A stretch of DNA of 64,000 nucleotides from Prochlorococcus marinus str. MIT 0917 (GTDB taxonomy: Bacteria; Cyanobacteriota; Cyanobacteriia; PCC-6307; Cyanobiaceae): NCBI RefSeq assembly GCF_027359575.1, contig NZ_CP114784.1, positions 1,239,819 to 1,303,818 of the forward strand, in the 5' to 3' direction. The notes below the pieces were generated by a model. The model did no database searches. It was not told the origin of the DNA and saw only the letters and a program-made list of their open reading frames with translations. A program made the position numbers and the translations under genes. The stretch's first letter is position 1; each line of letters begins with the position of its first letter. Below are positions 31,846 through 48,711 of the stretch, one piece after another.

Positions 31846-32631
31846 CTAGATAGGAATTGGAAATGTCACTTCAGCTGGTGGAGGAGAACAAGCCTCTATT
31901 TGAAAATCAACAACAGAACCTATTACAACGATAGAGGGAGAGACTAAATTTTCAGTTTCTACTCGATCAAAAAGATTCACTAATTGAGACTTAATAAAAC
32001 GTTGTCCAACAACAGTTCCCTGCTGAATCACTGCTGCAGGGGTAGATGGATTCATCCCCCCAGCAATTAATTCAGTAGAGATGAACTTTAAATTATGAAC
32101 ACCCATGTATATGACTAATCCGTCACTAGATTTTGCCAGAGAGCGCCAATTGACTGATGGACGCTTTTTATCAATCCCTTCGTGTCCAGTCACAAAAGTC
32201 ACTGAAGATCCAGCAAGCCTATGAGTAATAGGTATACCTACATAAGCTGGGGCAGCAATACCAGAGGTGACTCCGGGTACAACCTGGACCGGGACACCTT
32301 TTTTATGAAGATAGGATGCCTCTTCCGCTCCTCTACCGAACAAGAATGGATCACCACCTTTTAATCGGACTATAGAAGAATAAGTCTTTGCCAAATCAAA
32401 CAAAATATCATTCGTTTTCCTCTGAGGAACTGAATGATGTCCACGTCTCTTCCCGACTGAATGGAGTTGACAAGTAGACGATACTAAGTTGACCAACTCA
32501 ACTGGAACTAAAGAATCGTATACAAGAGCATCACATTGGCTAATTAATCTTTGTGCTTTAACTGTTAACAAATCAGGGTCACCAGGACCTGCTCCCACAA
32601 GATAAACAGTACCAAATTCCTTTTTACTCAT
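31846..32631 (-). CDS. cobA: Uroporphyrinogen-III C-methyltransferase
   Basis: SAM-dependent methylation of uroporphyrinogen III to precorrin-2, the branch point to siroheme and cobalamin. 261 residues with VYLVGAGPGDPDLLTVKAQRLI near the start, SAM loop VRLKGGDPFLFGRG, and VPVQVVPGVTSGIAAPAYVGIPITHR (read in parts). Its start codon overlaps the preceding small ORF (ATGA). Siroheme is the cofactor of NirA, whose gene is divergent nearby, which fits the context. Confidence 0.95.
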   Translation of the reverse strand: MSKKEFGTVYLVGAGPGDPDLLTVKAQRLISQCDALVYDSLVPVELVNLVSSTCQLHSVGKRRGHHSVPQRKTNDILFDLAKTYSSIVRLKGGDPFLFGRGAEEASYLHKKGVPVQVVPGVTSGIAAPAYVGIPITHRLAGSSVTFVTGHEGIDKKRPSVNWRSLAKSSDGLVIYMGVHNLKFISTELIAGGMNPSTPAAVIQQGTVVGQRFIKSQLVNLFDRVETENLVSPSIVVIGSVVDFQIEACSPPPAEVTFPIPI

Positions 32632-32822
32632 AGCAATTGCCCAAATATATATACAAAGCCACGATTAATGATTTCAGTAAAGCATATTAGCTGTTCTTCA
32701 TTACTATCAATTTTTATATTCTTATTTGGAGTTAAAAGATAAGGTATTAGAAGATAATCTTTATTCTGATTAGAACTATCTTTCTGGAAGAAAGAAGCAG
32801 AATTAAACGACTTCACAAACAT
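32628..32822 (-). CDS. Small hypothetical protein between the CbiX-like gene and cobA
   Basis: A 64-residue ORF whose start overlaps the stop of the upstream gene (TAATG) and whose stop overlaps the start of cobA (ATGA). This double overlap favours a translated, coupled gene. The sequence (YLLIPYLLTPNKNI) weakly resembles the tail of the upstream CbiX-like protein (IPYTLLPTEKT), so it may be a partial duplication or a decayed second domain. No function is recognised. Confidence 0.45.
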   Translation of the reverse strand: MFVKSFNSASFFQKDSSNQNKDYLLIPYLLTPNKNIKIDSNEEQLICFTEIINRGFVYIFGQLL

Positions 32823-33511
32823 TATGGCAGCTCACTTAATAAATTAATTAAACCATTTCTAAAAGATTTGATTTCAAGTAAAGAAGAAATAGAATCTTTT
32901 CTATTTAAAGATTTTGTTTTTTCTGTAGGCAATAATGTGTAAGGTATTGGAGAATAATTCATACTGGGCTTCTCTAAAAATTTATCCCATTCTGTCCAAG
33001 ATGCAGTTTGTATTCCTAGCCTATTGCCTAAGAATAGCATATGATCAGATGCAACCTTTGATCGCAGAGGATGATGCAAAAAAACTGGTGTCACTGATTT
33101 TTTCTCGACTTTTATCATTTCAACAAGAATATTAATCCAATTCTTCCACGATCCAATATAAGGAGTTAATTTAGAATTGATAAGTTCATTTTTCAATCTA
33201 TTTCTTATCAAAGGAACATCTATCCTGACATGATTACCTGGTAATAAGAATAAGGGTACGAGCCAAATAAACTTTGAAGAAGAAGTTTGATAAGAATTTT
33301 CAGTCAAGACTTCTAATTCTACTAATTTACCTCTTCTTTTTTGCACTTGATTGATGATAATATCCATAATAGGATGAACAAAACCATTTTTTGAACCATG
33401 GATTATTAATCTAATATCTCTTTTAGAAAATACTTTATTCTTTTTCTTTTGTATGCCTTCAAAAAATTCAGAATTTTTTAAAAATAATAAATTATTAGAA
33501 GATTTGTTCAT
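32822..33511 (-). CDS. CbiX/SirB-like chelatase family protein
   Basis: A 229-residue protein with the N-terminal chelatase signature RLIIHGSKNGFVHPIMDIIINQVQ and LVPLFLLPGNHVRIDVPLIRNRL, which follows the CbiX/sirohydrochlorin ferrochelatase pattern; a His in LIIHGSK fits the metal-ligand site. A cyanobacterial subgroup of this family is often near cobA and nirA, and it would insert iron (or cobalt) into sirohydrochlorin. Its stop overlaps the next ORF, and the gene is divergent from nirA across 282 bases holding an NtcA box. Confidence 0.7.
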   Translation of the reverse strand: MNKSSNNLLFLKNSEFFEGIQKKKNKVFSKRDIRLIIHGSKNGFVHPIMDIIINQVQKRRGKLVELEVLTENSYQTSSSKFIWLVPLFLLPGNHVRIDVPLIRNRLKNELINSKLTPYIGSWKNWINILVEMIKVEKKSVTPVFLHHPLRSKVASDHMLFLGNRLGIQTASWTEWDKFLEKPSMNYSPIPYTLLPTEKTKSLNRKDSISSLLEIKSFRNGLINLLSELP

Positions 33512-33666
33512 TGAACTAATTTCTTAGTAAGGAGAATAAATAAAAATCTCCTGATAAAACCCTTCATGGAATTGATGGGGATTATTTAACCAAAAAACAA
33601 CAAAATACGAGCATTAATTGTATCAAAAACTACATTTTTCTTTTTAAATTCTAAGTTCGAGATTTT

Positions 33667-33680
33667 GTATGTTTTGCTAC
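33667..33680. promoter_or_regulatory. NtcA-binding box upstream of nirA
   Basis: GTA-TGTTTTGC-TAC is an exact match to the cyanobacterial NtcA consensus GTA-N8-TAC. It lies 113 bases upstream of the nirA ATG and in the gap divergent with the CbiX-like gene. A clear -10 box at the standard spacing (about 22 bases downstream) is not obvious; TAATAG at 33705-33710 is a close candidate. It would give nitrogen control of nirA. Confidence 0.75.
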
Positions 33681-33793
33681 ATAGTAAGTCCCAGTTTTAG
33701 GGATTAATAGGTTCATAATATCCAATCTTCAAAAACTCAAAGCAATCATGAATCTGATGGACACCATTTTGCTTTGAAAAGATTAATTTTAAA

Positions 33794-35341
33794 ATGATGA
33801 GTAGCAACCAAGTTATGAAATCTTATTTACAAGAGAAAAAATTAAATAAAATTGAACAAAATAAAGCAAATAAAGATGGATTATTAATTGGTAAAGAAAT
33901 TGAAAATTTCGCAAAAATAGGCTGGGAAGAGATGGATAAAACTGACCTAGAGCTAAGGCTTAAATGGTATGGGATGTTTTGGAGACCAAAAACACCAGGT
34001 AAATTCATGCTTAGGCTGAGAGTCCCAAATGGTGTTATAAATGCACATCAATTAAAAATTGTTTCCTCAATTGTTGCAAGATACGGAGACAGTGGAAGCT
34101 GTGATGTAACAACAAGACAAAGTCTTCAACTTAGGGGGATTTTAATAAGTGATTTACCTGAAATTCTTAGACGATTAAATAAAGCTGGAATCTATAGTAT
34201 TCAATCTGGTTTCGATAATCCGAGAAATATAACTGGGAACCCAATAGCGGGTATTGATCCTGAAGAAATTATTGACACTAGAGATTATGTAAAACAATTA
34301 AATGATTATCTTACAAATAATGGTAAAGGAAATGAAGATTTTTCAAATTTACCTAGGAAATGGAATACTGCAATCGCAGGTTCAAAAGATAATTTTCTTT
34401 TACATAACGATTTAGTCTTTTTACCTGTAAAAGTGAATAATATTTTAGGCTTTAGTGTTTGGGTGGGTGGAATACTTTCATCAGTATTAAACGACTATGC
34501 CATTCCACTAAACGTTTGGATTGAGGATAACAAAATTTGTGAGTTTACAAATGCTGTTTTAAGTCTCTGGAGAGATCATGGAGAACGCTCTGCTCGACCT
34601 AAAGGAAGATTTAGATTGTATTTGAACAAAATTGGAATTGAAAACTTTAGAGATTTAGTTGAAGAACGGTTCGGAAAACTTAAGACTGATCCTGGTAGTG
34701 ACTTTTGCAAAATCCCTAGGTCCTTTCTTGGTATTAACCAGCAAAAACAAAAAGATATATTTTTTGCTGGATTACACATCCCTGTAGGAAGATTAAGCTC
34801 AGAGGATCTTCAAGACATTGCCTTGCTGAGTGAAAATTATGGATCAGGGGATATACGCCTAACAGAAGATCAGAATATAATAATTACGAATATTCCTAAG
34901 GACAAATTAGAAGAGTTCAAAAAAGAAAACCTATTAGATAAATTCCCTTTGAATCCTGGACATTTATCAGCAGGAACTGTTTCATGCACTGGTAATACCT
35001 ATTGTAATTTTGCTCTAACAAATACCAAAGATACTGCATTAGAAGTTTCTCAACTACTCGATCAGGAACTGGATCTAGATGATGAAATCAAAATTCATTG
35101 GACTGGATGTCCAAATAGTTGTGGTCAAGCATATATGGGTGCAATTGGGTTGACAGGCAAAAAAGGAAGAGATTCTGAGGGGAAAATAGTTGATGCTTAT
35201 GATATTTGTATTGGAGGTGAACAAGGACCATCAAATAAAATTGGCAAAATTCATCTTAAAAAAGTTCCTAAATATGAAATAAAAAATACTCTGAAACAGA
35301 TACTTATTGAAAATTTTTCAGCGAAGAAAAAAGTTGATTAA
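33794..35341 (+). CDS. nirA: Ferredoxin-nitrite reductase
   Basis: A 515-residue enzyme reducing nitrite to ammonium with six electrons from ferredoxin, using siroheme and a [4Fe-4S] cluster. The cluster ligands are visible as CTGNTYC (cysteines near 398 and 404) and CPNSCGQ (near 439 and 443). The N-terminal half shows TRQSLQLRG and the RSARPKGRFR anion/siroheme contacts. It starts at ATG 33794 downstream of an NtcA box. Its stop is followed one base later by the HEAT-repeat gene. A C-terminal ferredoxin fusion is absent. Confidence 0.97.
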   Translation: MMSSNQVMKSYLQEKKLNKIEQNKANKDGLLIGKEIENFAKIGWEEMDKTDLELRLKWYGMFWRPKTPGKFMLRLRVPNGVINAHQLKIVSSIVARYGDSGSCDVTTRQSLQLRGILISDLPEILRRLNKAGIYSIQSGFDNPRNITGNPIAGIDPEEIIDTRDYVKQLNDYLTNNGKGNEDFSNLPRKWNTAIAGSKDNFLLHNDLVFLPVKVNNILGFSVWVGGILSSVLNDYAIPLNVWIEDNKICEFTNAVLSLWRDHGERSARPKGRFRLYLNKIGIENFRDLVEERFGKLKTDPGSDFCKIPRSFLGINQQKQKDIFFAGLHIPVGRLSSEDLQDIALLSENYGSGDIRLTEDQNIIITNIPKDKLEEFKKENLLDKFPLNPGHLSAGTVSCTGNTYCNFALTNTKDTALEVSQLLDQELDLDDEIKIHWTGCPNSCGQAYMGAIGLTGKKGRDSEGKIVDAYDICIGGEQGPSNKIGKIHLKKVPKYEIKNTLKQILIENFSAKKKVD

Positions 35342-35342
35342 G

Positions 35343-36077
35343 ATGGCTACTTTAAGTGAGAAAGAAATTCGGGATAGATTTAATCAAAAAAATATACCTA
35401 AAGATCCATTATGGATTGAACAAGCTTATTCGAAATCTCTCCCTTATGAGATAAGACATTTATTGTGCGAACGTCTAGGTTTTTTAGCTGAGAAAGGTTG
35501 GACATCAATCAAATCATTAATAAAAAAACATGGTGGACAACCTGAATTGATCTATGCAGTTGGTATCTGCCATCAAATTGAGGCAAGAGATTTCTTACTT
35601 AATCAACTTGATGAACAAAAAGATCTAGATATAAATATATTAAAAGCACTTGCTTGCTGGGGAGCTGTAGTAAATAACAGCCAATTAGAATTAATTTTGA
35701 AGAGTAAATCCCAAGCGATTAGAATAGCTGGGTTAGAACTCCTAAGTTTTAAATCTCATTTACTGCATGAAACTGAGCTTTTAGAATTAGTTAATGAACC
35801 ACTAAAAGACTTTAGAGATGAAGTAGTCATTAAAGGAATCAAAATTCTTCAAAGGCGTAATGAAGATGCTGTTATCGATCGTCTTAAACAACTCGCTTTA
35901 AATGGTAGCTATCCCATTGCAGAACAAGCATTAATAGCACTAGGTTCAATCGGCACAAAATATAGTTCACGCCAAATTTCAGAGCTTATTACTCAACTAG
36001 ATATCAAGGAATTACAACAAAAAGCCAAAAAGCAACTATCTGTTCAAGATATATTTCTGGATCGAATAAATAATTAA
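35343..36077 (+). CDS. HEAT-repeat protein downstream of nirA
   Basis: About 244 residues from ATG 35343, one base after the nirA stop. The sequence is a series of helical HEAT-like repeats; ELLELVNEPLKDFRDEVVIKGIK and EQALIALGSIGTKYS are typical repeat units. The genes next to nirA in several cyanobacteria (such as nirB of Synechococcus elongatus) are needed for full nitrite reductase activity; whether this protein is equivalent is inference. It may help in assembly or electron supply for NirA. Confidence 0.7.
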   Translation: MATLSEKEIRDRFNQKNIPKDPLWIEQAYSKSLPYEIRHLLCERLGFLAEKGWTSIKSLIKKHGGQPELIYAVGICHQIEARDFLLNQLDEQKDLDINILKALACWGAVVNNSQLELILKSKSQAIRIAGLELLSFKSHLLHETELLELVNEPLKDFRDEVVIKGIKILQRRNEDAVIDRLKQLALNGSYPIAEQALIALGSIGTKYSSRQISELITQLDIKELQQKAKKQLSVQDIFLDRINN

Positions 36078-36080
36078 ATT

Positions 36081-36836
36081 TCATGCAAACGCTAATTTAA
36101 AACTTGCTAAAAATAAGATGAAAGAAATAATTTTTTTTATAAAATTATCATCAAATGTTCTGCTACCAAGAGAACTTCCACAAAAAGCAAAAAATAATAC
36201 AATTATTAAATGAAGAAAAATATTAGATGTGAAATGAATTTTTGAAGAATTATTTATTGTTTGCCATGTAATTATTCCAACTAAAGAATTAAAAAAAATA
36301 AAAACTGATGAAGCTGCAGCTGTAGTTTTAAGTGGCATCCACTTAAGTAAAATAGATAGAGGAGTTAAAAATATACCACCTCCTGTCCCAGTAATTCCAG
36401 ATAGTAAGCCAAGTATTGAACCAGTAAAAAAAACAACAATTTTTGAGGGCAGCTTATAATCATTTATAGTATTATTTTTTATTAGTAACGATGTAATTAA
36501 AAATCTAATTCCGGAAAGAAACAGTATAAGAGATAAAAAATATCTAAGTAAGGTATCAGTGATATTCAAGTTGCCTCCAACAATTGTAGAGGGAATTGAA
36601 ACTAATAGAATTGGTATTAAAAAATTAACTAATGAATATTTTTTTAAATGACCATCACCACAAAATCTTATTGAATTTAATGTTGATGCTGCCAGATTCA
36701 AAATTAAAGCTATTGGCTTGATAAGTGAAACTGGCTTATCAAATATAACCATACAGGCTATATAACCTGATGCACCAGCATGACCAACAATCGAATAAAG
36801 AAAAGCAATTAATGCTATCCCAATGAAATAAAGCAC
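36081..36836 (-). CDS. TauE/SafE-family permease
   Basis: A 251-residue integral membrane protein with about seven or eight hydrophobic segments and the family's paired motifs: SIVGHAGASGYIA near the N-terminus and LLSGITGTGGGIFLTPLSIL mid-protein. TauE/SafE members move sulfite, sulfonates or related anions. It converges with the HEAT gene (3 bases apart) inside the nitrate cluster, next to moaB, so another anion (for example nitrite or molybdate) is conceivable but unproven. Confidence 0.75.
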   Translation of the reverse strand: MLYFIGIALIAFLYSIVGHAGASGYIACMVIFDKPVSLIKPIALILNLAASTLNSIRFCGDGHLKKYSLVNFLIPILLVSIPSTIVGGNLNITDTLLRYFLSLILFLSGIRFLITSLLIKNNTINDYKLPSKIVVFFTGSILGLLSGITGTGGGIFLTPLSILLKWMPLKTTAAASSVFIFFNSLVGIITWQTINNSSKIHFTSNIFLHLIIVLFFAFCGSSLGSRTFDDNFIKKIISFILFLASFKLAFA

Positions 36837-36861
36837 TCTTTTAATCCATATCTTTTTCCAA

Positions 36862-37356
36862 CTATTTTTTTAATCTATTAATTAAATTTATCAAATTACA
36901 TGGTTTAGTATCACTGTTTAGTTGATATTTTATTATTTGATTCCATGCAGTATTTACTGCATCTAAAGATCCTGGCAAACTAAAGATAAAAGTTCCATTT
37001 GCCACACCTGCAATACATCTACTTTGCAAGGTGCTCGTGCCAATTTTCTTAAATGATGTATATCTAAAGATTTCCGCAAAACCTTCTATTTCTTTATCTA
37101 ATAAGGGTTTTATTGCCTCCGGCGTAACATCAGTAAAAGTAAGCCCTGTTCCTCCAGTAGTGATAATAACATCAATATCATCATCAGCTATCCAATCACT
37201 TATATACTTTCTAATAATATAAACATTATCCTTGCATATTATTCTATTACTTATATTATGTTTATCTATTTTTAGTGAATCAACTAAAAATTGACCACTA
37301 TCATCATTTTTTATGTCTCGAGTATCAGATACAGTTAACAATGCAATAGAAACCAC
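36862..37356 (-). CDS. moaB: Molybdenum cofactor biosynthesis protein MoaB
   Basis: A 164-residue MoaB/Mog-family protein with the MPT-binding motif VIITTGGTGLTFTDVTPEAI and the SLPGS segment. This family adenylates molybdopterin for molybdenum insertion. It is upstream of the TauE permease on the same strand and divergent from moaD across 38 bases. The overall gene set makes a Moco role for NarB the natural reading. Confidence 0.9.
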   Translation of the reverse strand: MVSIALLTVSDTRDIKNDDSGQFLVDSLKIDKHNISNRIICKDNVYIIRKYISDWIADDDIDVIITTGGTGLTFTDVTPEAIKPLLDKEIEGFAEIFRYTSFKKIGTSTLQSRCIAGVANGTFIFSLPGSLDAVNTAWNQIIKYQLNSDTKPCNLINLINRLKK

Positions 37357-37394
37357 TTAGTATAAAACAATTAAAATATATGAATTAACTATAC

Positions 37395-37646
37395 ATGAAA
37401 AATAATGCTAGCCAAATCAAAGTATTATTGTTTGCTGAATTAAGTGAAAAATATGGATGGGATGAACAATATCTTTCTTTAGACCTAATAGAAGATAAAA
37501 AAGCAAAATCTATACTAAAACATATTAATATCAATGTAGATCACCAATCAATAATTGTGGCTATTAATAAAGAAATTTCTAGTCTAGAAGCAACTGTTAA
37601 AGATAATGATGAGGTAGCATTCATGCCGATTTTTACAGGTGGATAA
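37395..37646 (+). CDS. moaD: Molybdopterin synthase small subunit
   Basis: An 83-residue ubiquitin-like sulfur carrier ending in the required C-terminal Gly-Gly (PIFTGG), which is thiocarboxylated and donates sulfur to precursor Z. It overlaps moaE by 8 bases, as expected for the two subunits of molybdopterin synthase. The length is typical. The activating enzyme MoeB is not in the window. Confidence 0.9.
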   Translation: MKNNASQIKVLLFAELSEKYGWDEQYLSLDLIEDKKAKSILKHININVDHQSIIVAINKEISSLEATVKDNDEVAFMPIFTGG

Positions 37647-38085
37647 AATTAAGTACAAATTCAAAATAGCAACTGATCCTTTTGATCCATATCGAGAAAT
37701 TGAAAAATGGGAAATTAATAATCAAATGGCTGCAATGTCAATTTTTATTGGACGAGTTAGAGAGATAGATCAATTTGGAAGTCAATTAAAAAAATTAGAA
37801 ATCCATCACTACAGTGGTTTAACTGAAAAGTTAATCGAAAAGCACTTATCAGAAATTACTAAAAAAATCGAATCTTTTTCTGCGTTAGTTATCCATCGAG
37901 TAGGCTTCATTGATCCACTAGAGCCAATAGTGCTCATAGCAGTTCGTGCTGATAAAAGAGGAATAGCTAATCAATACTGCTCTGAAATTTTAGAGGTAAC
38001 AAAATTCAAAGTACCTTTCTGGAAAAAGGAATGGACTGACAAAGGTTCTTCCTGGGTCAAAAATAATACTGCACTTTCAACCTAA
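37639..38085 (+). CDS. moaE: Molybdopterin synthase large subunit
   Basis: A 148-residue protein, GTG-started, that overlaps moaD. Family signatures are visible: GRVREIDQFGSQLKKLEIHHYSGL and IHRVGFIDPLEPIVLIAVRADKRG (read in parts), plus KVPFWKKEW with the active-site lysine. With MoaD it converts cyclic pyranopterin monophosphate to molybdopterin. It is convergent with moeA, one base apart. Confidence 0.93.
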   Translation: MDKIKYKFKIATDPFDPYREIEKWEINNQMAAMSIFIGRVREIDQFGSQLKKLEIHHYSGLTEKLIEKHLSEITKKIESFSALVIHRVGFIDPLEPIVLIAVRADKRGIANQYCSEILEVTKFKVPFWKKEWTDKGSSWVKNNTALST

Positions 38086-38086
38086 A

Positions 38087-39367
38087 CTATAAAATTGTTT
38101 TTCTGAAAAGCTGTGCCCAAAGATATGTTCCTTTCTTAAGTAAATCCTTATCGGGTGGGATCTCAATTAACAGATCAGAATCAATTAAAGAAGAAATTTG
38201 TGAGGATGATTGTGCAGGAGGAATATCCGCGTATAATTCACCTTGCTGATCTACTTTAAGTTTAGATCTAATCAATTCAGGTCTACCTTTTCTTCTTTTA
38301 AGATCAGAGTTAATTCTGATCTTAAATCTCAAGGGTGTTTCTATATTCTTCACTCCACTAAAAACTTGAAATACGGGCCACAAAATTTGCAAACAAATTA
38401 CTACTGCAGACACAGGATTACCAGGTAAACCAAAAAATGGAATATCTTGACCAATAAAACCAAAGGCAAAGGGTCTACCAGGCTTTAAAAAAAGCTTCCA
38501 GAACTTTATTTCTCCAATTTCATTAATAATATTTTTAATATAGTCTTTTTTCCCAACGGAAATTCCACCTATGGAAATTACAATTTGATTATTTTTTGCA
38601 AGTTCAATAAGAGAATTCTTTAATTTGAATTTATCATCTGCTTGAATTGATATTTCATTGATATCATATCCAAGATTTTTTATAATACTTTTAATTAAAA
38701 AACTATTACTTTCCCAGATTAATCCAGTTGATTTATCTATACCAGGTTTGATTAATTCATCGCCTGAAATAAGTAATCCTATTTTGAAAGATTTAAACAC
38801 ACTAATATAACTTTTTCCACAACTAGCAAGTAATCCAATAATACTAGGAGTAATTTTTTGACCCTTCGCTAATACGATATCTCCTTCCGATAATTGATCA
38901 TTAACAGGTCTAATCCAATTACTATCCGTTAAGTCGTCTATGAGATGTATTTTCTCAAAAGAGCTATCTTTTATCATTTCTGTCTTTATCTGTTCTAAAG
39001 GAATAACCCAAGAGCATTCATCAGGAACTAATGAACCAGTGCTTATAGCAATGGCTTCACCTTCAGAAAGATTTTTAGTGTAAGGTTTCCCAGCGGATGA
39101 ATCTCCAACAACTTTCCAATATTGTCCTTTCTGAGGTTTGGCAGAATGACTAACCGCGAAACCATCCATTATGGAGGCTCTAAAGCCGGGAATATTCTGT
39201 TTTACAAAAATATCTGTTGAAGAAATTTTTTCTAAGGAATCTTCTAAAGGAATACTTTCGAAAGGAATAGTAAAATTATCTAAAACGTTCTTGATTTCCT
39301 TTAAAACTTCTTTTCTAGCTTCTTCTACTTTTAATCCCTCCCTTAAAAAAGGCTCTTGAGTCATCAA
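38087..39367 (-). CDS. moeA: Molybdopterin molybdenumtransferase MoeA
   Basis: A 426-residue enzyme that inserts molybdate into adenylylated molybdopterin. It shows PGFRASIMDGFAV near the N-terminus, the MPT-binding ISIGGISVGKKDY, and FFGLPGNPVSAVV. It lies downstream of moaC on the same strand with a 4-base gap. A perfect 12-bp hairpin lies inside its coding sequence at 38297-38326. No separate MogA is needed if MoaB does the adenylation. Confidence 0.93.
   Translation of the reverse strand: MMTQEPFLREGLKVEEARKEVLKEIKNVLDNFTIPFESIPLEDSLEKISSTDIFVKQNIPGFRASIMDGFAVSHSAKPQKGQYWKVVGDSSAGKPYTKNLSEGEAIAISTGSLVPDECSWVIPLEQIKTEMIKDSSFEKIHLIDDLTDSNWIRPVNDQLSEGDIVLAKGQKITPSIIGLLASCGKSYISVFKSFKIGLLISGDELIKPGIDKSTGLIWESNSFLIKSIIKNLGYDINEISIQADDKFKLKNSLIELAKNNQIVISIGGISVGKKDYIKNIINEIGEIKFWKLFLKPGRPFAFGFIGQDIPFFGLPGNPVSAVVICLQILWPVFQVFSGVKNIETPLRFKIRINSDLKRRKGRPELIRSKLKVDQQGELYADIPPAQSSSQISSLIDSDLLIEIPPDKDLLKKGTYLWAQLFRKTIL
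38297..38326. repeat. Perfect 12-bp inverted repeat inside moeA
   Basis: TTTAAGATCAGA (38297-38308), loop GTTAAT, then TCTGATCTTAAA (38315-38326), all 12 pairs matching. It falls within the C-terminal domain coding region (around FKIRINSDLKR) of the minus-strand moeA gene. Neither strand has a following T-run, so it is not a terminator. Confidence 0.95.
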
Positions 39368-39371
39368 AAAA

Positions 39372-39857
39372 TTAATTAGTTTCTCTCCTCAGGATACCTT
39401 TTTTGCCTCCTTTTTTTTCTAAAAGTCGAATTGAATTTATTGTTAAAAAAGGATCGATAGCTTTAAGCATATCGTAAATAGTTAGTAATCCTATAGAAAC
39501 CGCAGTAAGTGCTTCCATCTCTACACCAGTTTGAGCATTCGTTTTACATAATGCAGTGATTTTTATCGCTCTTTTTTTATTACATAGATCTATATCAATC
39601 CTGATATTACTTAAACTTAATAAGTGACAAAGTGGGATTAATTCCGAAGTTTTTTTAGATGCATTAATTGCAGCAAATCTTGCAGCAGCAAATAAATCTC
39701 CTTTTTTTATATTGCCGTCTTTAACATTATCAAATGCTTCCACACTTAAATCAATATATCCTTCAGCGAGAGCTTCTCTCGGAGTGCTTATTTTCTCAGA
39801 AATATCAACTATAAACATATCGCCCTTCTCATTTAAATGAGTTAGGTTTGAATCCAT
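39372..39857 (-). CDS. moaC: Cyclic pyranopterin monophosphate synthase MoaC
   Basis: A 161-residue MoaC that turns the MoaA product into cyclic pyranopterin monophosphate. Visible: MFIVDISEKISTPREALAEGYI near the start (in parts), LIPLCHLLSLSNI, and KTNAQTGVEMEALTAVSIGLLTIYDMLKA (in parts), all strong family motifs. It is 4 bases upstream of moeA in one transcript and divergent from narM across 120 AT-rich bases. Confidence 0.95.
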   Translation of the reverse strand: MDSNLTHLNEKGDMFIVDISEKISTPREALAEGYIDLSVEAFDNVKDGNIKKGDLFAAARFAAINASKKTSELIPLCHLLSLSNIRIDIDLCNKKRAIKITALCKTNAQTGVEMEALTAVSIGLLTIYDMLKAIDPFLTINSIRLLEKKGGKKGILRRETN

Positions 39858-39977: not shown

Positions 39978-40445
39978 TTGGAACAATCAAGCCACTGTTT
40001 TGAATTTGAAGATGAATTTATTAGTGATCTAAGATGTATACCTTTATGCGTTCGTAGGAAACTTGATCTTATCGGTTTAAAACTAAAACTTCAACATTGG
40101 CAGGAGTTAAATCACGATGATAAAAGAAAAATAGTTTATTGGTCAGATTCGATTGACGACTTAGATGGATTGAAATCCTATTTGATTAGTAAAACTAGGC
40201 GTAGTCGTATAGGTCAAGCAAAAGAAATTTTAATTTCAAAAGATGAGCCATGGTTGTTATCGGGTACAGTCCCAAAATTTATTGATGTTGAAGCAAACAA
40301 ATATACATTTCAGATATCTCAGAAAATATGGTCTAATTTGAGCGAACTTGAAAGGTTCGCTCTATGTAAACTTGCAAGACCTGGACATGAACACCGAAAT
40401 CTTATTAAAGCTTTTAAAGAAATATTAATCAATAATGATTCTTAG
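39978..40445 (+). CDS. narM: Nitrate-reductase-associated protein NarM
   Basis: A 155-residue protein of the nitrate-reductase-associated family (Nitr_red_assoc), recognised by FEFEDEFISDLRCIPLCVRRKLDLIGLKLKL (quoted here as two overlapping parts: FEFEDEFISDLRCIP and RRKLDLIGLKL). NarM is required for active nitrate reductase in Synechococcus elongatus, probably in cofactor loading or stability. It starts at TTG 39978 with GTAGG seven bases upstream as ribosome site; ATG starts are absent. It leads the run narM-mobA-moaA. Confidence 0.85.
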   Translation: MEQSSHCFEFEDEFISDLRCIPLCVRRKLDLIGLKLKLQHWQELNHDDKRKIVYWSDSIDDLDGLKSYLISKTRRSRIGQAKEILISKDEPWLLSGTVPKFIDVEANKYTFQISQKIWSNLSELERFALCKLARPGHEHRNLIKAFKEILINNDS

Positions 40446-40569: not shown

Positions 40570-41184
40570 ATTATCATTTTAGATAGTTCTACTAAGAAAG
40601 AACTCAAAGCTTGTATTCTCTCTGGGGGGCAAAGTACCAGAATGGGTAAAGATAAGGCACTATTAAAACATCATGAAGGCGATAGCTGGTTATCACATAA
40701 ATTAAATATCCTGAAAAAACTGGACTTAGAAACTATCCTCTTAACTAATCATCAATCTCATATAAATGAAATTAGTGAATTTCATAAAGTAAATATATTA
40801 TTTGATAAAAAACCTTTCCATGGACCACTAAATTGTATGGAGTTTTTATATTCAAAATTTTTAGGAAAATATAACTATATACTCTTAATGCCAGTAGATA
40901 TGCCTTTCATTAATAGCAATCATATTGAAGCTTTTATCAAGTGTTGGAAAAAAAATAGAGATATAGCACTTATCGCACATAGTAATAAAATGGCTCAACC
41001 ACTACTTGGCATTTATCCTCTAAATCAAAATAACTTAAATAAGTTAAATGAAAGACTTCAATTAGGTAAAATAAATTTTCAGGGATGGACAAAATCAATT
41101 CCTTTTCATTATTATTTTGCCAAAGACAAAGAATTCTTAAATGTCAACTCATTACAAGAACTAAAATCACTAAATTATTATTAA
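40570..41184 (+). CDS. mobA: Molybdenum cofactor guanylyltransferase MobA, likely ATT start
   Basis: MobA attaches GMP to Mo-molybdopterin, giving the bis-MGD form used by NarB. The family motif LSGGQSTRMGKDKALL is present, but the only ATG (40642) lies inside that motif and would remove the GTP-binding loop. In frame upstream there is no ATG, GTG or TTG before the stop at 40567-40569; the only start options are ATT or ATC codons at 40570-40578. ATT 40570 has GAGA six bases ahead. The full protein would have about 204 residues, the normal size. moaA follows after 4 bases. Confidence 0.8.
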   Translation: MIILDSSTKKELKACILSGGQSTRMGKDKALLKHHEGDSWLSHKLNILKKLDLETILLTNHQSHINEISEFHKVNILFDKKPFHGPLNCMEFLYSKFLGKYNYILLMPVDMPFINSNHIEAFIKCWKKNRDIALIAHSNKMAQPLLGIYPLNQNNLNKLNERLQLGKINFQGWTKSIPFHYYFAKDKEFLNVNSLQELKSLNYY

Positions 41185-42371: not shown

Positions 42372-42545
42372 GTGCGCTTTGCTATTAGTTTAGGAATGTT
42401 AATGGGTATGACTCATGGTTGGTATGTAAGTAAAGGTTATGCATCTACATACCAATATAATGATACTTATTTTCAGTCTGAGATTAACCAACTTCCCACC
42501 TACTCTTTTTTGAAATCTAAAAATACAGGATTGAGTTTTAATTGA
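42372..42545 (+). CDS. Possible small protein, 57 residues
   Basis: An open frame from GTG 42372 (or ATG 42396) to TGA 42543-42545. The product begins VRFAISLGMLMGMTHGWYVS, a short hydrophobic N-terminus, then a polar Tyr/Ser-rich tail. It could be a secreted or anchored peptide of the type common in Prochlorococcus. Coding evidence is weak and no family is known. Confidence 0.35.
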   Translation: MRFAISLGMLMGMTHGWYVSKGYASTYQYNDTYFQSEINQLPTYSFLKSKNTGLSFN

Positions 42546-42753
42546 TTTAATTTAGAATTATAATAAGTAAAATTCATAAAAGTAACTACATTCAATACGA
42601 TTTACTTTTCTGTTCATTGATTTTTTTTGTATCAATCTGAACCACTTTTAGGAGCTTAAAGCATTATTATGTATTAACTAATACAAAATTCTTCTTTTTA
42701 GATCAGCTCGGGTCTTCTTTAAGAACTTTTGCATAGTTCATCACTCTATTCTC
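42546..42753. other. AT-rich intergenic stretch with nothing clear
   Basis: Together with the small ORF before it, this belongs to a 518-base gap after moaA. I see only poly-T runs and a weak ATTGAT/ATCAAT hairpin near 42617-42637, and no tRNA, NtcA box or long ORF. Confidence 0.5.
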
Positions 42754-42954
42754 ATGGATCTCCTTACATACAGAGGTCAAAAATATCTACCTGAAGACAT
42801 TAAAAATCTTCATTACTCAAACACGAGTTATCTTGATAGGCAAATCAAAGCCAAAATGACTATCAATGAGACTCTATTTTCTTATAGAGGCATAAATTAT
42901 AAAAAATCAAAGCCAAAAGATATAACAGTCAACTGTTTTTGGAAGAATTTTTAA
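42754..42954 (+). CDS. Small DUF4278-like protein
   Basis: A 66-residue protein with the pattern LTYRGQKY near its start and FSYRGINYK later, a two-copy YRG-x-x-Y motif typical of the cyanobacterial DUF4278 group. The function of that group is unknown to me. It stands alone between moaA and the nitrate permease and is transcribed in their direction. Confidence 0.6.
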   Translation: MDLLTYRGQKYLPEDIKNLHYSNTSYLDRQIKAKMTINETLFSYRGINYKKSKPKDITVNCFWKNF

Positions 42955-43037
42955 ATACTTTTGTATTACACTGAACAACACTGCTCTGGAAAAGGGATCA
43001 TAATAAATATGTAGTGAAGACTACAAAAACGTTCAAC

Positions 43038-43088
43038 TCGCTCCAGCGAGCCGCAAATCGCCTTAAGCCAAGGAACGGGGAGCTTAAG
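43038..43088 (+). other. Two short hairpins upstream of a small gene
   Basis: CTCGC-tcca-GCGAG (43038-43051) and CTTAAGC (43062-43068) pairing with GCTTAAG (43082-43088) lie in a locally GC-richer run just ahead of ATG 43110. They may form a structured 5' leader if that ATG is the true start; otherwise they are coding. Confidence 0.4.
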
Positions 43089-43109
43089 CTAAAACGATCC
43101 AAATTAATC

Positions 43110-43424
43110 ATGTCTACGAGTTCCGCACGAAGCACTGAAAGAAGTGCCATTACTGTTTCAGCAGGATTTTTGGGAGCTTTCATTGTTAGTTCTTTAGCTG
43201 TTCAGCTTTTTAGAAGCTACTCCCCTACTGTTCAAAATAAATTAACTACTGTTGACCCAGTAATTGCTAGTCCTGCCACTCTTTGGTCTGAACTGGGAAC
43301 ACGAGATAACATTATTACTAAACAATCAAATACAAAATTAAATACAAATAGTTCAACTTCTATCAATATTCAACCTGTAATAGCCTCTGAGGCAACTTTG
43401 TGGTCTCCTCTTTTTATTGATTGA
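43110..43424 (+). CDS. Hypothetical single-span membrane protein
   Basis: About 104 residues from ATG 43110, with the alternative GTG 43014 giving 136. One hydrophobic helix (ITVSAGFLGAFIVSSLAVQLF) lies near the N-terminus, and the remainder is a Ser/Thr/Asn-rich tail holding two copies of VIAS-x-ATLWS (PVIASPATLWSEL and PVIASEATLWSPL). The function is unknown. It is the last gene before the nitrate permease promoter. Confidence 0.6.
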   Translation: MSTSSARSTERSAITVSAGFLGAFIVSSLAVQLFRSYSPTVQNKLTTVDPVIASPATLWSELGTRDNIITKQSNTKLNTNSSTSINIQPVIASEATLWSPLFID

Positions 43425-43649: not shown

Positions 43650-43663
43650 GTATCGACTACTAC
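43650..43663 (+). promoter_or_regulatory. NtcA-binding box upstream of the nitrate permease
   Basis: GTA-TCGACTAC-TAC matches GTA-N8-TAC exactly. TTTAAT follows at 43686-43691, exactly 22 bases after the box, the spacing of classical NtcA class II promoters, so transcription likely starts near 43697. The gene ATG is 105 bases downstream of the box. This places nitrate uptake under nitrogen control. Confidence 0.85.
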
Positions 43664-43767
43664 TTAGTGGGAATATACCGGCTGATTTAATTCTTCAAAA
43701 CGGTTTGATTTTTTACCGTTTTCAATAGGCAAATTTTTTAAGCCTTCTTTCTTACTTTTTAATTTCA

Positions 43768-45309
43768 ATGCTTGGAAATCTTTGGACATTTCAAGGGAGA
43801 TATCGAACACTTCATCTCACTTGGTTTGCGTTCTTTCTAACTTTTGTTGTTTGGTTCAATTTGGCTCCCCTCGCTACGACTGTTAAGGCAGACTTGGGGC
43901 TCACTTTGGGTCAAATTCGAACTGTAGCTATCTGTAATGTTGCGTTAACAATTCCAGCGAGAGTCCTGATCGGAATGCTTTTAGATAAATTTGGACCACG
44001 TAAAACATACTCAAGTCTTCTCATCTTTTCGGTAGTTCCATGCTTACTGTTCGCCTCAGCAGAAACTTTTAATCAATTAGTTATCGCTCGCTTATTACTT
44101 TCAATTGTAGGTGCAGGATTTGTAATTGGTATTCGGATGGTGGCTGAATGGTTCCCACCTAAAGAAATCGGTTTAGCAGAAGGAATATATGGAGGTTGGG
44201 GTAATTTTGGCTCGGCTTTCTCGGCTCTGACAATGGTTGCCATTGCTGGGTTACTTTCTTTTTCAGGTGGATTTGAATTACCAACAGGTGCCGTTCTTAA
44301 CTGGCGAGGTGCTATCGCTGGCAGTGGTGTGATTTCAGCATTGTATGGCATCTTTTATTTCTTTAATGTCAGAGATACTCCTCCTGGAAAAATTTATCAG
44401 CGCCCAACTAAAACAGCTGGTCTAGAAGTCACTTCTATGCGAGATTTTTGGGGGCTTTTGGGTATGAATGTGCCGTTTGCAGCCATACTTGCTGTTTTAT
44501 GTTGGAGGTTAAAGAAAGTTGGTTTCCTTGATGCAGGAACATATCCATTAGCTCTTTTCGCTGTTTTAATTTGGTTCGCTTTTCAGACTTGGGGGATTAT
44601 TCGTACAAACTCAGAGTTAATTGCAGGAACTAAAATTTATCCAAAAGAAGACCGTTATGAATTCAAACAAGTAGCAATTCTTGAACTCACATATATTGTT
44701 AATTTTGGTTCTGAGCTGGCAGTTGTTTCAATGTTACCTACTTTTTTTGAGACAACATTTGATTTACCAAAAGCAACAGCAGGTATTCTAGCCTCCTCCT
44801 TTGCTTTCGTTAACCTTGTTGCACGTCCAGCTGGAGGTCTAATTTCTGACAAGCTCGGAAGTAGAAAAAATACTATGAGTTTTCTAACCGGAGGCTTAGG
44901 AATTGGATACCTTGTCATGAGTTGGATCAAACCCGGTACTTTTTCAGGTGTAAGTGGAATTATCGTCGCATTGTTCATAACAATGCTTGCTTCCTTCTTT
45001 GTTCAGGCAGGTGAAGGCGCTACTTTTGCTCTAGTCCCACTTGTCAAAAGAAGAGTTACTGGACAGGTCGCTGGTCTTGTTGGTGCCTATGGCAACGTAG
45101 GAGCAGTTACTTATCTAACTATTTTTAGTCTTCTACCTATGTGGATGAGTGGAGGTGGAGAAACTACAGCAGAGATAATTGCTAATTCCAATAGTGCCTT
45201 TTTCCAAATCTTAGGAATAGCAGGGCTGATAGTTGCATTCATGTGCTTTTTCTTTCTTAAAGAACCAAAAGGATCCTTCGATGAATTACATGAAGGGGAA
45301 ATTGCATAA
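43768..45309 (+). CDS. Nitrate/nitrite permease, MFS NrtP (NapA) type
   Basis: A 513-residue, 12-span major facilitator protein of the nitrate-nitrite porter family. The nitrate signature is visible twice: GIYGGWGNFGSAFSA in the first half and GLVGAYGNVGAVTYL in the second. MFS loop motif GMLLDKFGPRK is also present. Marine cyanobacteria use this permease (NrtP, also called NapA) in place of the NrtABCD ABC transporter. It is preceded by an NtcA box and followed by a strong terminator before narB. Confidence 0.92.
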   Translation: MLGNLWTFQGRYRTLHLTWFAFFLTFVVWFNLAPLATTVKADLGLTLGQIRTVAICNVALTIPARVLIGMLLDKFGPRKTYSSLLIFSVVPCLLFASAETFNQLVIARLLLSIVGAGFVIGIRMVAEWFPPKEIGLAEGIYGGWGNFGSAFSALTMVAIAGLLSFSGGFELPTGAVLNWRGAIAGSGVISALYGIFYFFNVRDTPPGKIYQRPTKTAGLEVTSMRDFWGLLGMNVPFAAILAVLCWRLKKVGFLDAGTYPLALFAVLIWFAFQTWGIIRTNSELIAGTKIYPKEDRYEFKQVAILELTYIVNFGSELAVVSMLPTFFETTFDLPKATAGILASSFAFVNLVARPAGGLISDKLGSRKNTMSFLTGGLGIGYLVMSWIKPGTFSGVSGIIVALFITMLASFFVQAGEGATFALVPLVKRRVTGQVAGLVGAYGNVGAVTYLTIFSLLPMWMSGGGETTAEIIANSNSAFFQILGIAGLIVAFMCFFFLKEPKGSFDELHEGEIA

Positions 45310-45330
45310 AATATTATTCAATTTTCAATC

Positions 45331-45369
45331 AAAACCTTGGGTAACTAACTACCCAAGGTTTTATTTTCT
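45331..45369 (+). terminator. Strong hairpin terminator between the permease and narB
   Basis: AAAACCTTGGGTA (45331-45343), loop ACTAAC, TACCCAAGGTTTT (45350-45362), a perfect 13-bp stem followed by ATTTTCTT. It sits 22 bases after the permease stop and 18 before the narB ATG. It looks like a rho-independent terminator, with possible read-through or RNA processing into narB. Confidence 0.85.
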
Positions 45370-45386
45370 TATCTCATTAAATTAAG

Positions 45387-47612
45387 ATGACAGAAAAAAT
45401 TAAAAATTTAACTACTCAATGTCCATATTGTGGAGTTGGATGTGGTCTAGAAATGCAACCACCAGCTGAAATCGGAAAGGCAGTCCGTAGAGATGCAGAT
45501 GGTTATCCAATGTGGAGATCTAGAGGAGATCGCAATCATCCATCCAACCTTGGACAAATATGTATTAAAGGTGCAACCGTAGGAGAAACCTTGTCTCCAG
45601 GGAGATTAAATCAACCTCTGTATCGAGATAATTTCAATGATAAATATCGACCGATTAGCTGGAATGAAGCTACAGATAAAATAGTTTCACAGATCAAAAA
45701 AAGTTTAATCAAAAAAGGTCCAAACTCTATAGCGATGTATGGTTCTGGACAATTTCATACTGAAGACTACTATATTGCTCAAAAATTACTCAAAGGAGCT
45801 TTAGGTACAAATAATTTTGATGCAAATTCAAGACTATGCATGAGCTCAGCTGTGGCTGGATATAATTTAAGTCTTGGATCAGATGGTCCTCCTTGTTGTT
45901 ATGAAGATCTTGATCACTACACCGTTGCATTCCTTATTGGCACTAATACTGCAGAATGCCATCCAGTACTTTTTCAACGTCTACTCAAAAGGAAAAAACG
46001 ACATCCTGATAAAGTAAAAATTATTGTTATAGATCCAAGATTAACCGACACTGCAAAAGCTGCAGACATTTATTTACCTATTGCTCCCGGTAGCGACTTA
46101 GCTCTGTTATATGGTATTGCCAATTTAGTTCTGAAAAAGAATGGGCAAAATACAGAATTTATTGAAAATCATACAGATCAATATTCAGAATTCTTAGAGA
46201 TTGTCAAAAATTGGACGCCACGAAAAGTTGCTCGCTTTTGTGGTATCCCAGAAAAAAAATTAGAAGAAGTAGCTAATATGTTTAATCATCACGAAAGGGT
46301 GCTCAGTCTTTGGTCAATGGGTGTAAATCAACGTAGAGAAGGTACTGCAGTTGTTGGAGGACTTATCAATCTACATCTTCTTACAGGACAAATTGGGAAA
46401 GAAGGAGCAGGACCTTTCTCACTTACAGGCCAGCCAAATGCTATGGGAGGACGTGAAGCAGGAGGCCTATCTCATCTACTACCTGGTTATAGACATGTTG
46501 CTAGTACAAAACATAGACAAGTAGTCGAAAATCACTGGGATTTTCCGGCTGGAAGTATCTCTGAAGAACCAGGTCTAAATGCCTGGCAACAAATTGAAGC
46601 AATGGAAAAAGGAGAAATAGATCTTTGGTGGGTGGCTGCAACAAACCCACTTGTAAGCATGCCTGATCTAAATCGAGTGAAAGCAGCAATAAAAAATTGT
46701 TCACTGGTTGTTTTATCTGAAGCATATGTAAATACTGAAACCTCTCATTACGCCCACCTATTATTACCCGCTGCACAGTGGAGTGAGAAAGCCGGTGTAA
46801 TGACTAACTCAGAAAGGCGAATTACTTATTGTCCAGCTTTTCGTCCTTGCTTTGGTCAAAGTCGTCCAGATTGGGAGATCTTTGCTGAAGTAGGCCAAAA
46901 ACTTGGATTTATTGATCAGTTTACTTACGGTTCTTCTTCTGAGGTATATTCAGAATTCACAGCTCTGACACACGGTCGTCTTTGTGATAGTTCGGGACTT
47001 AATCATGAATTACTAAAAAGTATTGGTCCCCAACAGTGGCCATTTCCAAAAGGGGGTAATCCGACAAAAGAAGCTAAGCGACTTTATGAAGATAAAAGAT
47101 TTGCAACACCTAATGGTCGAGCCCAATTTTACACTAAGCAACCTATGGGAATCGCTGAACCTCCATGCGATATGTACCCGTTAGTTTTAACTGTTGGGCG
47201 TTACCTAGGACAATGGCATACCATGACTCGTACTGGGAAAGTAAATCGGCTCAATAAAATGCACCCTGAACCATTACTTGAAATTCATCCTATGGATGCA
47301 AAAGATATGAATATCAAAGATGGTGAGTTATCTGCTCTTAATTCTCGTAGAGGATATCTTACGGTACGTGTAAAAGAAACCGATCGTATACGTCGAGGCA
47401 CAGTTTTTCTCCCAATGCACTGGGGCTTCACTCAAACAAATCACTGTGAAACAAATAACTTGATGCATGAACAATCATGTCCCGTATCTAAACAGCCTGA
47501 ACTAAAAGCAAGTGCTGTAATTGTGGCTCCAGTGAATCCTGTCAATCAACCAATTGAAAATGATAAAAAAGGATTTGTTAAATACGTAAAAGAAATCGTC
47601 AATATTCAATAA
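45387..47612 (+). CDS. narB: Ferredoxin-dependent assimilatory nitrate reductase
   Basis: A 741-residue molybdoenzyme reducing nitrate to nitrite with ferredoxin. The N-terminal [4Fe-4S] motif uses cysteines 12, 15, 19 and 59 (CPYCGVGC, then QICIKG). C151 in NSRLCMSSA is the molybdenum ligand, and GPPCCYEDLD follows. The bis-MGD binding domain at the end shows GRYLGQWHTMTRTGK and HWGFTQTN. Length is normal. No separate promoter motif was found in the short gap from the permease, which holds a hairpin. Confidence 0.97.
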   Translation: MTEKIKNLTTQCPYCGVGCGLEMQPPAEIGKAVRRDADGYPMWRSRGDRNHPSNLGQICIKGATVGETLSPGRLNQPLYRDNFNDKYRPISWNEATDKIVSQIKKSLIKKGPNSIAMYGSGQFHTEDYYIAQKLLKGALGTNNFDANSRLCMSSAVAGYNLSLGSDGPPCCYEDLDHYTVAFLIGTNTAECHPVLFQRLLKRKKRHPDKVKIIVIDPRLTDTAKAADIYLPIAPGSDLALLYGIANLVLKKNGQNTEFIENHTDQYSEFLEIVKNWTPRKVARFCGIPEKKLEEVANMFNHHERVLSLWSMGVNQRREGTAVVGGLINLHLLTGQIGKEGAGPFSLTGQPNAMGGREAGGLSHLLPGYRHVASTKHRQVVENHWDFPAGSISEEPGLNAWQQIEAMEKGEIDLWWVAATNPLVSMPDLNRVKAAIKNCSLVVLSEAYVNTETSHYAHLLLPAAQWSEKAGVMTNSERRITYCPAFRPCFGQSRPDWEIFAEVGQKLGFIDQFTYGSSSEVYSEFTALTHGRLCDSSGLNHELLKSIGPQQWPFPKGGNPTKEAKRLYEDKRFATPNGRAQFYTKQPMGIAEPPCDMYPLVLTVGRYLGQWHTMTRTGKVNRLNKMHPEPLLEIHPMDAKDMNIKDGELSALNSRRGYLTVRVKETDRIRRGTVFLPMHWGFTQTNHCETNNLMHEQSCPVSKQPELKASAVIVAPVNPVNQPIENDKKGFVKYVKEIVNIQ

Positions 47613-47652
47613 AAAATTGGGGACAACACTTCCTTTTGAGAAAAAAATTTCT

Positions 47653-48711
47653 ATGCCGAAAAACTACGAAGAATTTAAAACCTATTTAAAAAAAATAGGT
47701 AGTGGTGAGTTTACAGGCAAAAGTCTTACTCGCGAAGAAACTAAAGCAGCTATCACACTGATGCTGAAAGAAGAAGCAACTGCAGCACAAATTGGTGGTT
47801 TCATGATTGCACATAGAATTAGACGTCCTATCCCTGAAGAATTAGCCGGGATGATTGACGCCTATAGAGAACTAGGACCAAAAATTCAATCACCTAGTAA
47901 TCAACGTCAACCTATATTTTTTGGGATGCCTTTTGATGGTCGAAAAAAAACTGCACCTATATATCCTCTAACAACTTTACTATTACTAACGCAGAAAAAG
48001 CCTGTTATTTTACATGGTGGTTCTCGTATGCCTGTGAAATACGGCGTTACTCATAACGAACTCTTTCAAGCGCTAGGATTAAATTTAACCGGTCTATCAA
48101 TCGAACAACTGCAAAATTTTTTCAATCAGAACGACCTTGCCTTAATACATCAGCCAGATCATTTTCCACTAGCTGAAAATTTAATTCCTTATAGAGATCA
48201 AATAGGTAAACGCCCACCTCTAGCAAGTATGGAATTAATCTGGACATGTCATCAAGGAAGTCATCTACATATAAGTGGCTATGTTCATTCTCCTACTGAA
48301 GAAAGACATTGGACAACCTTAGAACTTATGGGAGAACAAAATGTGATTACTATCAAAGGACTGGAAGGTGGAATAGATCTTTCAATAAGTCGTTCATCAA
48401 CAATTGGACAGTACAAAAATCAACATGGAACTAGAACTGTTTTTCATCCCAAAGACTACGCATGTTCTGGAAAAGATATTGAATGGAGCGACATCACAGA
48501 ATGGAAGAAATTTGCCTTACAAGCTCTTAATGGCGAAGGCCCTTTAACTAAAGCGTTAGAGTGGAATGCTGGTATTTACTTTTTTTATGCAGGCTTAAGC
48601 TCTGATATTAAAGAGGGAATTAATAAAGCAAAAGAAGTAATCAATTCAGGGTTTGCTTTAAAGAAATTAGAAAAATTAATTCATTGGAGAGACGAAAATA
48701 TTGATTCCTAA
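47653..48711 (+). CDS. TrpD2/YbiB-like (anthranilate phosphoribosyltransferase family) protein
   Basis: 352 residues from ATG 47653; the frame is open from TTG 47617, five bases after narB. N-terminal helices show LTREETKAAITLMLKEEATAAQIGGFMIAHRIRRP (two pieces), typical of the glycosyltransferase family 3 fold, but the PRPP loop of true TrpD is not clear (GGSRMPVKYGVT occupies that place). YbiB/TrpD2 homologs bind nucleic acids and do not make tryptophan. It is co-directional with narB, so it may be co-transcribed; a nitrogen link is unproven. Confidence 0.7.
   Translation: MPKNYEEFKTYLKKIGSGEFTGKSLTREETKAAITLMLKEEATAAQIGGFMIAHRIRRPIPEELAGMIDAYRELGPKIQSPSNQRQPIFFGMPFDGRKKTAPIYPLTTLLLLTQKKPVILHGGSRMPVKYGVTHNELFQALGLNLTGLSIEQLQNFFNQNDLALIHQPDHFPLAENLIPYRDQIGKRPPLASMELIWTCHQGSHLHISGYVHSPTEERHWTTLELMGEQNVITIKGLEGGIDLSISRSSTIGQYKNQHGTRTVFHPKDYACSGKDIEWSDITEWKKFALQALNGEGPLTKALEWNAGIYFFYAGLSSDIKEGINKAKEVINSGFALKKLEKLIHWRDENIDS

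Follow-up and report, generated by a model that had tools for sequence, protein, structure and literature searches.

A putative small membrane protein encoded behind a glutamine riboswitch in the nitrate assimilation cluster of Prochlorococcus marinus MIT 0917

We analysed a 64,000-nucleotide stretch of the Prochlorococcus marinus str. MIT 0917 genome (contig NZ_CP114784.1, positions 1,239,819 to 1,303,818; hereafter the window), in which the genes for nitrate assimilation lie between pyrG and ppk. This region is the nitrate cluster of low-light I (LLI) Prochlorococcus in its MIT0917-type configuration, with a Type II-like NirA and no FocA, and the cluster has already been described; its pyrG-ppk location and the NarB identity point to an LLI host. 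Inside the cluster, between a DUF4278 gene and the nitrate permease gene nrtP, a glutamine-II riboswitch aptamer (RF01704) precedes a small open reading frame (ORF), which we name pepR. Together, PepR and the riboswitch appear to extend a known kind of system by a new component. We propose that PepR is a glutamine-gated modulator of nitrate uptake by NrtP, more likely a brake, and give this a probability of roughly 0.5; we infer both the partner and the sign of the effect.

After a polar N-terminus, PepR has one hydrophobic segment predicted to insert into the membrane (the best 19-residue mean, 2.0, falls at residue 13), followed by a tail that carries the PVxxSxATLW motif twice. The ORF as originally listed (43014-43424) reads through the aptamer; the start that is conserved among relatives, at 43110, lies 21 nt 3' of it. 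Relatives carry one or two of the tail motifs. In total, 69 loci yielded 54 distinct sequences that can be aligned across the transmembrane (TM) segment and the tail. In an alignment of 17 sequences, LLI proteins are 42-51% identical to the others and 14 columns are invariant, mostly in the TM segment and the first tail motif. No Pfam, NCBIfam or PHROG family matched PepR at E up to 1. Searches for relatives in viral contigs returned 38 pattern matches, none of which was confirmed, and phage records gave none. We found no mention of PepR in the literature searched, a search that left most subscription papers outside.

Using 350 evenly drawn Cyanobiaceae genomes, with thresholds of E up to 1e-3 for PepR and up to 1e-100 for narB and NrtP, we identified PepR in 95, narB in 196 and NrtP in 111. 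All 95 PepR-positive genomes carried narB, and PepR occurred in none of the 154 genomes lacking narB. Among the narB-positive genomes, PepR was present in 94 of 109 with NrtP and in 1 of 87 without; in that single genome (G335) the contig ends 298 bases beyond narB, at the expected nrtP position. Fisher values for this linkage overstate its certainty because the genomes are related, and within-genus contrasts are better evidence than the pooled counts. Seven genera contain both kinds of genome, and in these PepR was found in 17 of 19 NrtP-positive and 0 of 66 NrtP-negative members (this count leaves out genus g35, where G335 is the single genome without NrtP). PepR follows NrtP rather than NarB in the Cyanobiaceae. 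These counts also bear on the idea that PepR has its role at another point of nitrate metabolism, such as the membrane placement of NarB or NirA or nitrite retention, and that its link to NrtP reflects a co-inherited or co-transferred module. PepR was found only with narB, at a distance of 0.5-6 kb in the 15 genomes measured, and the mixed genera could have acquired nrtP, narB and pepR jointly. However, PepR is missing from 86 of the 87 narB-positive genomes without an NrtP match, which disfavours NarB or NirA as its sole partner, and we consider a role elsewhere in the pathway rather unlikely.

The region upstream of pepR is shared between two Prochlorococcus groups. RF01704 lies 5' of pepR in 11 of the 12 PepR-positive genomes of this genus, the twelfth (G029) beginning only 50 nt before pepR, and in all seven PepR-positive genomes of genus g18. 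It was absent from the pepR loci of 29 other Cyanobiaceae genomes (18 searched at E up to 10 and 13 at the gathering threshold, two shared) and, at the gathering threshold, from six named Synechococcus loci. An exact GTAN8TAC palindrome sits just 5' of the aptamer in 11 of 11 LLI and 8 of 8 high-light (HL)-type pepR leaders, the latter being the seven g18 genomes plus locus L050, assigned from gene order and divergence. The same leaders carry a one-mismatch GTA-N8-AAC site about 48 nt upstream of the palindrome and, in those that reach the distal site (two LLI and three HL-type), it stands 22 nt from a -10-like box, judged by eye. This spacing fits activation by NtcA at the distal site, while the proximal palindrome would overlap the presumed transcription start. 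The unit of NtcA-type sites, riboswitch and PepR looks orthologous in the LLI and HL-type groups despite their differing cluster layouts. In Synechococcus loci, pepR is present, often preceded by the small ORF orf57, and an NtcA-like site occurs near -55 in about half of those scanned, exact in a minority. orf57 precedes pepR in LLI loci as well as in many Synechococcus loci, and a motif search did not find it in the HL-type loci.

Glutamine turns expression on through type 2 aptamers of this class, which are associated with DUF4278 proteins, and glutamine binding and switching have been demonstrated for another Prochlorococcus copy (PMC6316151; here and below, papers are cited from parts of their text unless main-text searches are mentioned). 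By analogy with these known aptamers, the pepR leader would be expected to respond to glutamine. The source genome holds seven RF01704 copies, four of which, including that of pepR, have the palindrome at the same spot. Of the six others, two precede peptides scoring above the DUF4278 cut-off and two precede peptides below it, while the remaining two stand before an ORF with a YRG motif (by eye) and before an unrelated ORF. In the source genome, the glutamine-II riboswitch at G000:C1:99548-99605 (L144) stands before a 54-aa ORF that lacks the YRG motif. The window contains 11 exact GTAN8TAC sites, a raw count not compared with chance, and 7 of these lie upstream of nirA (two), orf57, the DUF4278 gene, pepR and nrtP (two). 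The DUF4278 gene (42754-42954) has its exact NtcA-type palindrome at 42671 and no aptamer of its own.

In the mechanism that we propose, NtcA would set the transcription of pepR, the riboswitch would permit PepR synthesis as glutamine rises, and PepR would sit in the membrane and alter NrtP activity. Its most likely role would be that of a brake, halting nitrate uptake once nitrogen is sufficient, since a glutamine-induced membrane protein linked to a nitrate permease would most simply be an NrtP brake. More tentatively, and with rather less confidence, PepR might be the dedicated glutamine-gated NrtP inhibitor of alpha-cyanobacteria, riboswitch-gated in Prochlorococcus and filling the role that PII and NrtC have for the ATP-binding cassette (ABC) transporter; PII acts on the ABC nitrate transporter NrtABCD (PMC6603209). 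Nitrate use divides ecotypes within a phototroph that ranks among the most abundant, and the examined parts of PMC6603209 and PMC4390861 do not settle how nitrate uptake is shut off in marine picocyanobacteria at nitrogen sufficiency. PepR offers a specific and testable candidate, as it tracks NrtP across the 350 genomes and stands behind a glutamine riboswitch in Prochlorococcus. If the proposal is true, an RNA sensor together with a small membrane protein would close a feedback loop on nitrate uptake in the ocean.

Several observations weigh against a brake acting on NrtP. NrtP has been described, citing earlier work, as lacking post-translational regulation (Maeda 2015, PMC4390861). The distal site, with its activator spacing, would raise pepR transcription in nitrogen limitation, which fits a brake less simply. 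By eye, no Shine-Dalgarno-like stretch lies between the aptamer and the pepR start, unlike in three other copies of the riboswitch. PepR was undetected in 15 of the 109 genomes with both narB and NrtP, so NrtP may work without it. Nine of these 15 belong to genus g9, whose tenth genome (G151) has a divergent copy on a contig other than that of narB; in another, G021, the locus is cut by a contig end, and a hidden Markov model (HMM) search of the other 14 narB neighbourhoods, several of which fall short of the full cluster, gave a best E of 0.15. Outside the Cyanobiaceae, an NrtP-like gene was present in 25 of 36 narB loci, of which no more than 3 matched the PepR HMM at E<0.05 among all 36. 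Finally, pairwise dN/dS for pepR lay at 0.3-0.7 in six pairs and at 1.2 in a seventh, weak support taken alone, and the structure model of PepR is poor (mean predicted local distance difference test score, pLDDT, 53.8).

The main rival to a brake is a positive accessory role, with PepR as a subunit that NrtP needs for folding, stability or high affinity. NAR2, a single-TM protein, serves NRT2 in plants and algae in this way. Such a subunit would account for the close tracking of NrtP by PepR in the Cyanobiaceae, for the single hydrophobic helix with small residues and for the activator spacing of the distal NtcA-like site in the aligned LLI and HL-type leaders. A glutamine-on riboswitch, however, would yield the required subunit mainly when nitrogen is plentiful, PepR was not detected in most NrtP loci outside the Cyanobiaceae, and it has no Pfam match, including no NAR2 domain at E up to 1 in Pfam, which we take to hold one. 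We regard an accessory subunit as unlikely. That the locus is just the known nitrate cluster, its ordinary downstream-peptide motif followed by a PepR that is no more than a chance ORF or a leader peptide, is very improbable: the motif is named after such short ORFs, no protein family matches PepR and dN/dS is not low in all pairs, but in-frame homologues occur in 95 genomes, their distinct sequences align over TM segment and tail, LLI proteins show the identities to the others given above, and pepR occurs where no riboswitch was found.

The proposed NrtP brake has its nearest parallels in control rather than in protein sequence. GifA and GifB (IF7 and IF17) are small inhibitors of glutamine synthetase (GS) made in nitrogen excess, with NtcA sites at both genes and a glutamine riboswitch at gifB (PMC6316151). 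PepR resembles them in small size, NtcA-type sites and, for gifB, the riboswitch, a likeness in control only. It differs from IF17-type GS inactivating factors in having a TM helix and no DUF4278, and its proposed target is NrtP, not GS. The arrangement also departs from the usual riboswitch-DUF4278 unit, as the ORF that closely follows the window aptamer is PepR, without DUF4278 and inside a nitrate cluster, whereas the DUF4278 ORF is located 5' of the aptamer. NirP1, a regulator of nitrite reductase, is likewise small and acts in nitrate assimilation; its homologues, for the most part 76-86 aa long, share a conserved Cys and three Trp, and none has been found in Prochlorococcus according to the part of PMC10907346 used, whereas PepR has no Cys and two Trp. 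NirP1 is the known regulator of nitrite leakage; PepR may also bear on the leakage of the MIT0917 configuration. The cluster itself is known from PMC6370341 and PMC10470740, and the window shows the same pyrG-ppk location, the same gene content and the divergent nirA without focA. The unit of NtcA site, riboswitch and PepR was found in none of the literature searched: PepR is not mentioned in the examined parts of either paper and, in main-text word searches, TauE appeared in neither and riboswitch did not appear in PMC6370341, the one of the two searched for that word.

Short ORFs with some likeness to PepR occur outside the Cyanobiaceae, where all matches to the PepR HMM were weak. In Moorena loci L062, L065 and L069, a TM-like ORF ending in LWETLGER or similar lies just past narB (about 12290-12500, minus strand) and scores against the PepR HMM at E 0.0012, 0.021 and 0.18 in a small set. 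A comparable short ORF lies in L079 and L080, whose available locus sequences hold no NrtP. These ORFs may be distant PepR relatives or may have arisen by chance. A weak piece (E 0.05-0.15) was also seen in L047/L174.

Gene prediction and Pfam domains confirmed every gene that an initial annotation, made from the sequence alone, had named in the cluster, including seven molybdenum cofactor (Moco) genes and the bounding pyrG and ppk (Table 1). That annotation had missed the HEAT-like gene at the nirX position, the TauE-family permease, three small ORFs and the riboswitch. Its view that the catalytic motifs are intact held for the motifs searched: NarB CPYCGVGC and fourth Cys, NirA C-x5-C and C-x3-C, both MoaA Cys sets, the GG C-termini of MoaA and MoaD, and NrtP GGWGNFG; a second NrtP pattern (NS2), in the form used for the search, had no match in the window NrtP. 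With narB, nrtP/napA, narM, the Moco genes, nirA and nirX all present and open, the pathway looks functional: NrtP would import nitrate, NarB would reduce it with cofactor from the local Moco genes, and NirA would complete the reduction with siroheme supplied via cobA and cbiX. The genome is a single 1.92-Mb contig, 100% complete by computed estimate. narB showed no internal stops across 15 matches in the genus, NrtP was 99-100% identical in 12 further genus genomes compared, and the window NarB was 94-98% identical to named Prochlorococcus records.

Table 1 Features of the nitrate cluster and its bounds in the window
Feature	Position	Strand	Evidence or remark
pyrG	26626-28293		Assigned from ORF translation; upstream bound of cluster
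cobA-like uroporphyrinogen-III methyltransferase (siroheme branch for NirA)	31846-32631	-	PF00590, 2.3e-44
CbiX-like chelatase, probable sirohydrochlorin ferrochelatase, divergent form	32822-33511	-	PF01903 24.5 bits, cut-off 22
nirA, Type II-like ferredoxin-nitrite reductase	33794-35341	+	NF007125 826.6 bits, cut-off 594
nirX, HEAT-repeat-like, named by position (PMC6370341)	35307-36077	+	PF13646 25.7 bits, below cut-off 27.7
TauE/TSUP-family anion permease, paired with moaB	36081-36836	-	PF01925 3.6e-24
moaB	36862-37356	-	PF00994
moaD	37395-37646	+	PF02597; C-terminal GG
moaE	37639-38085	+	PF02391
moeA	38087-39367	-	PF03453/PF00994/PF03454
moaC	39372-39857	-	PF01967
narM, nitrate reductase-associated	39978-40445	+	PF09655 5.6e-41
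mobA	40642-41184	+	PF12804
moaA	41189-42235	+	PF04055/PF06463
orf57, small conserved ORF, GTG start	42372-42545	+	RFA-SLG-HGW motif in LLI and Synechococcus loci
DUF4278 small protein	42754-42954	+	PF14105 26.0 bits, cut-off 25.3
Distal NtcA-like site GTATTACACTGAAC, one mismatch	42963-42976	+	22 nt upstream of -10-like CATAAT (42999-43004), spacing by eye
Proximal exact NtcA-type palindrome GTAGTGAAGACTAC	43011-43024	+	2 nt before aptamer
Glutamine-II (downstream-peptide) riboswitch aptamer	43027-43088	+	RF01704 56 bits, E 7.4e-11, gathering score 33
pepR (name coined here), 104-aa predicted single-TM protein, two PVxxSxATLW motifs	43110-43424	+	Family alignments, distribution
nrtP/napA, major facilitator superfamily nitrate/nitrite permease	43768-45309	+	TIGR00886 368 bits, cut-off 311.7
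narB, ferredoxin-nitrate reductase	45387-47612	+	PF00384/PF01568/PF04879
TrpD2-like gene, flank	47617-48711	+	NF005635
ppk	50571-52709		Downstream bound of cluster

The word 'complete', which the initial annotation had applied to the cluster, is right for the genes present and conceals a configuration without focA. No match to focA (PF01226) was found anywhere in the complete source genome. The window nirA is 98-100% identical to those of four genomes (G016, G017, G024 and G027) and 69-71% identical to 23 others, as expected of two types; this typing is an internal identity comparison among genus genomes. focA was present in 23 of 23 genomes with the other nirA and had no match in the five with the window type, although completeness is only 86-88% for G017, G024 and G027; narB is present in each of the five. 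The window cbiX and nirX are 97-98% identical in G016 and 35-39% identical in four narB-negative, focA-positive genomes (for the CbiX-like chelatase alone, 97% in G016 (L136) and 35-36%). As cbiX and nirX diverge along with nirA, the divergence spans a cassette, which suggests a swap of cbiX-nirA-nirX (32822-36077) between the source genome and G016 on one side and the four focA-positive genomes on the other. The nirA/focA pattern fits the published Type II configuration of MIT0917, a strain that grows on nitrate and releases 20-30% of it as nitrite, whereas MIT0915 does not; such release was also seen, to a lesser extent, in the HL strain SB (PMC10470740).

Nitrate use is a minority trait, as had been claimed: narB was identified in 14 of the 41 genomes of the genus, and in 6 of the 17 with completeness of 90% or more and contamination of 5% or less. 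The accompanying suggestion that a fragmented layout with six strand switches marks patchy gain fared less well. We counted five switches within cobA to trpD2, and gene order and orientation are the same in all seven LLI loci whose length permits a comparison (L020-L025 and L051, LLI status assigned from location and identity). Since location and gene order are conserved in LLI Prochlorococcus, the strand layout is not a sign of fragmentation. Berube 2019 (PMC6370341) places nitrate/nitrite genes between pyrG and ppk in 28 of 28 LLI genomes and likewise in Synechococcus, reports conserved order among LLI genomes with one exception as well as narB trees congruent with core trees, and makes the case for vertical descent with loss on the basis of trees, position and GC. 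In favour of a recent patchy gain, which we consider very improbable, stand the low narB frequency and the AT-richness of the moaB to moaA stretch (27-32% GC in 1-kb windows across 36-43 kb, versus 29-41% for most of the window).

Four single-contig narB-negative genomes (L132-L135) keep cobA, cbiX, nirA, nirX, trpD2, gnat, mfs and ppk in place and lack the whole stretch from tauE through narB. In these genomes, the nitrate trait thus comes down to whether a single block is there. nirA, at no less than 69% identity, occurs in 28 of the 41 genus genomes, weaker matches resembling sulfite reductase. The bounds first drawn for the nitrate block held for the nitrate genes and not for the last gene (47617-48711), since this TrpD2-like gene is also present in the four narB-negative genomes examined and lies outside the block.

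The TauE-family permease adjoins moaB in 10 of 14 narB-positive and 0 of 27 narB-negative genus genomes; in the other four narB-positive genomes, the narB contigs stop short of the tauE position. Family-wide, 66 of 70 genomes with TauE are narB-positive. We rejected TauE as a replacement for focA because it is found in focA-positive and focA-negative genus genomes alike. ModA had no match in the source genome, and a role for TauE as a molybdate importer complementing ModA is unsupported: at the thresholds used, both occur in 7 genomes and neither in 105 of 196 narB-positive ones. TauE also adjoins moaB in L034 and L035, and in L035, from a Synechococcus metagenome-assembled genome, a Guanidine-I riboswitch (20410-20505) lies near the nitrate cluster.

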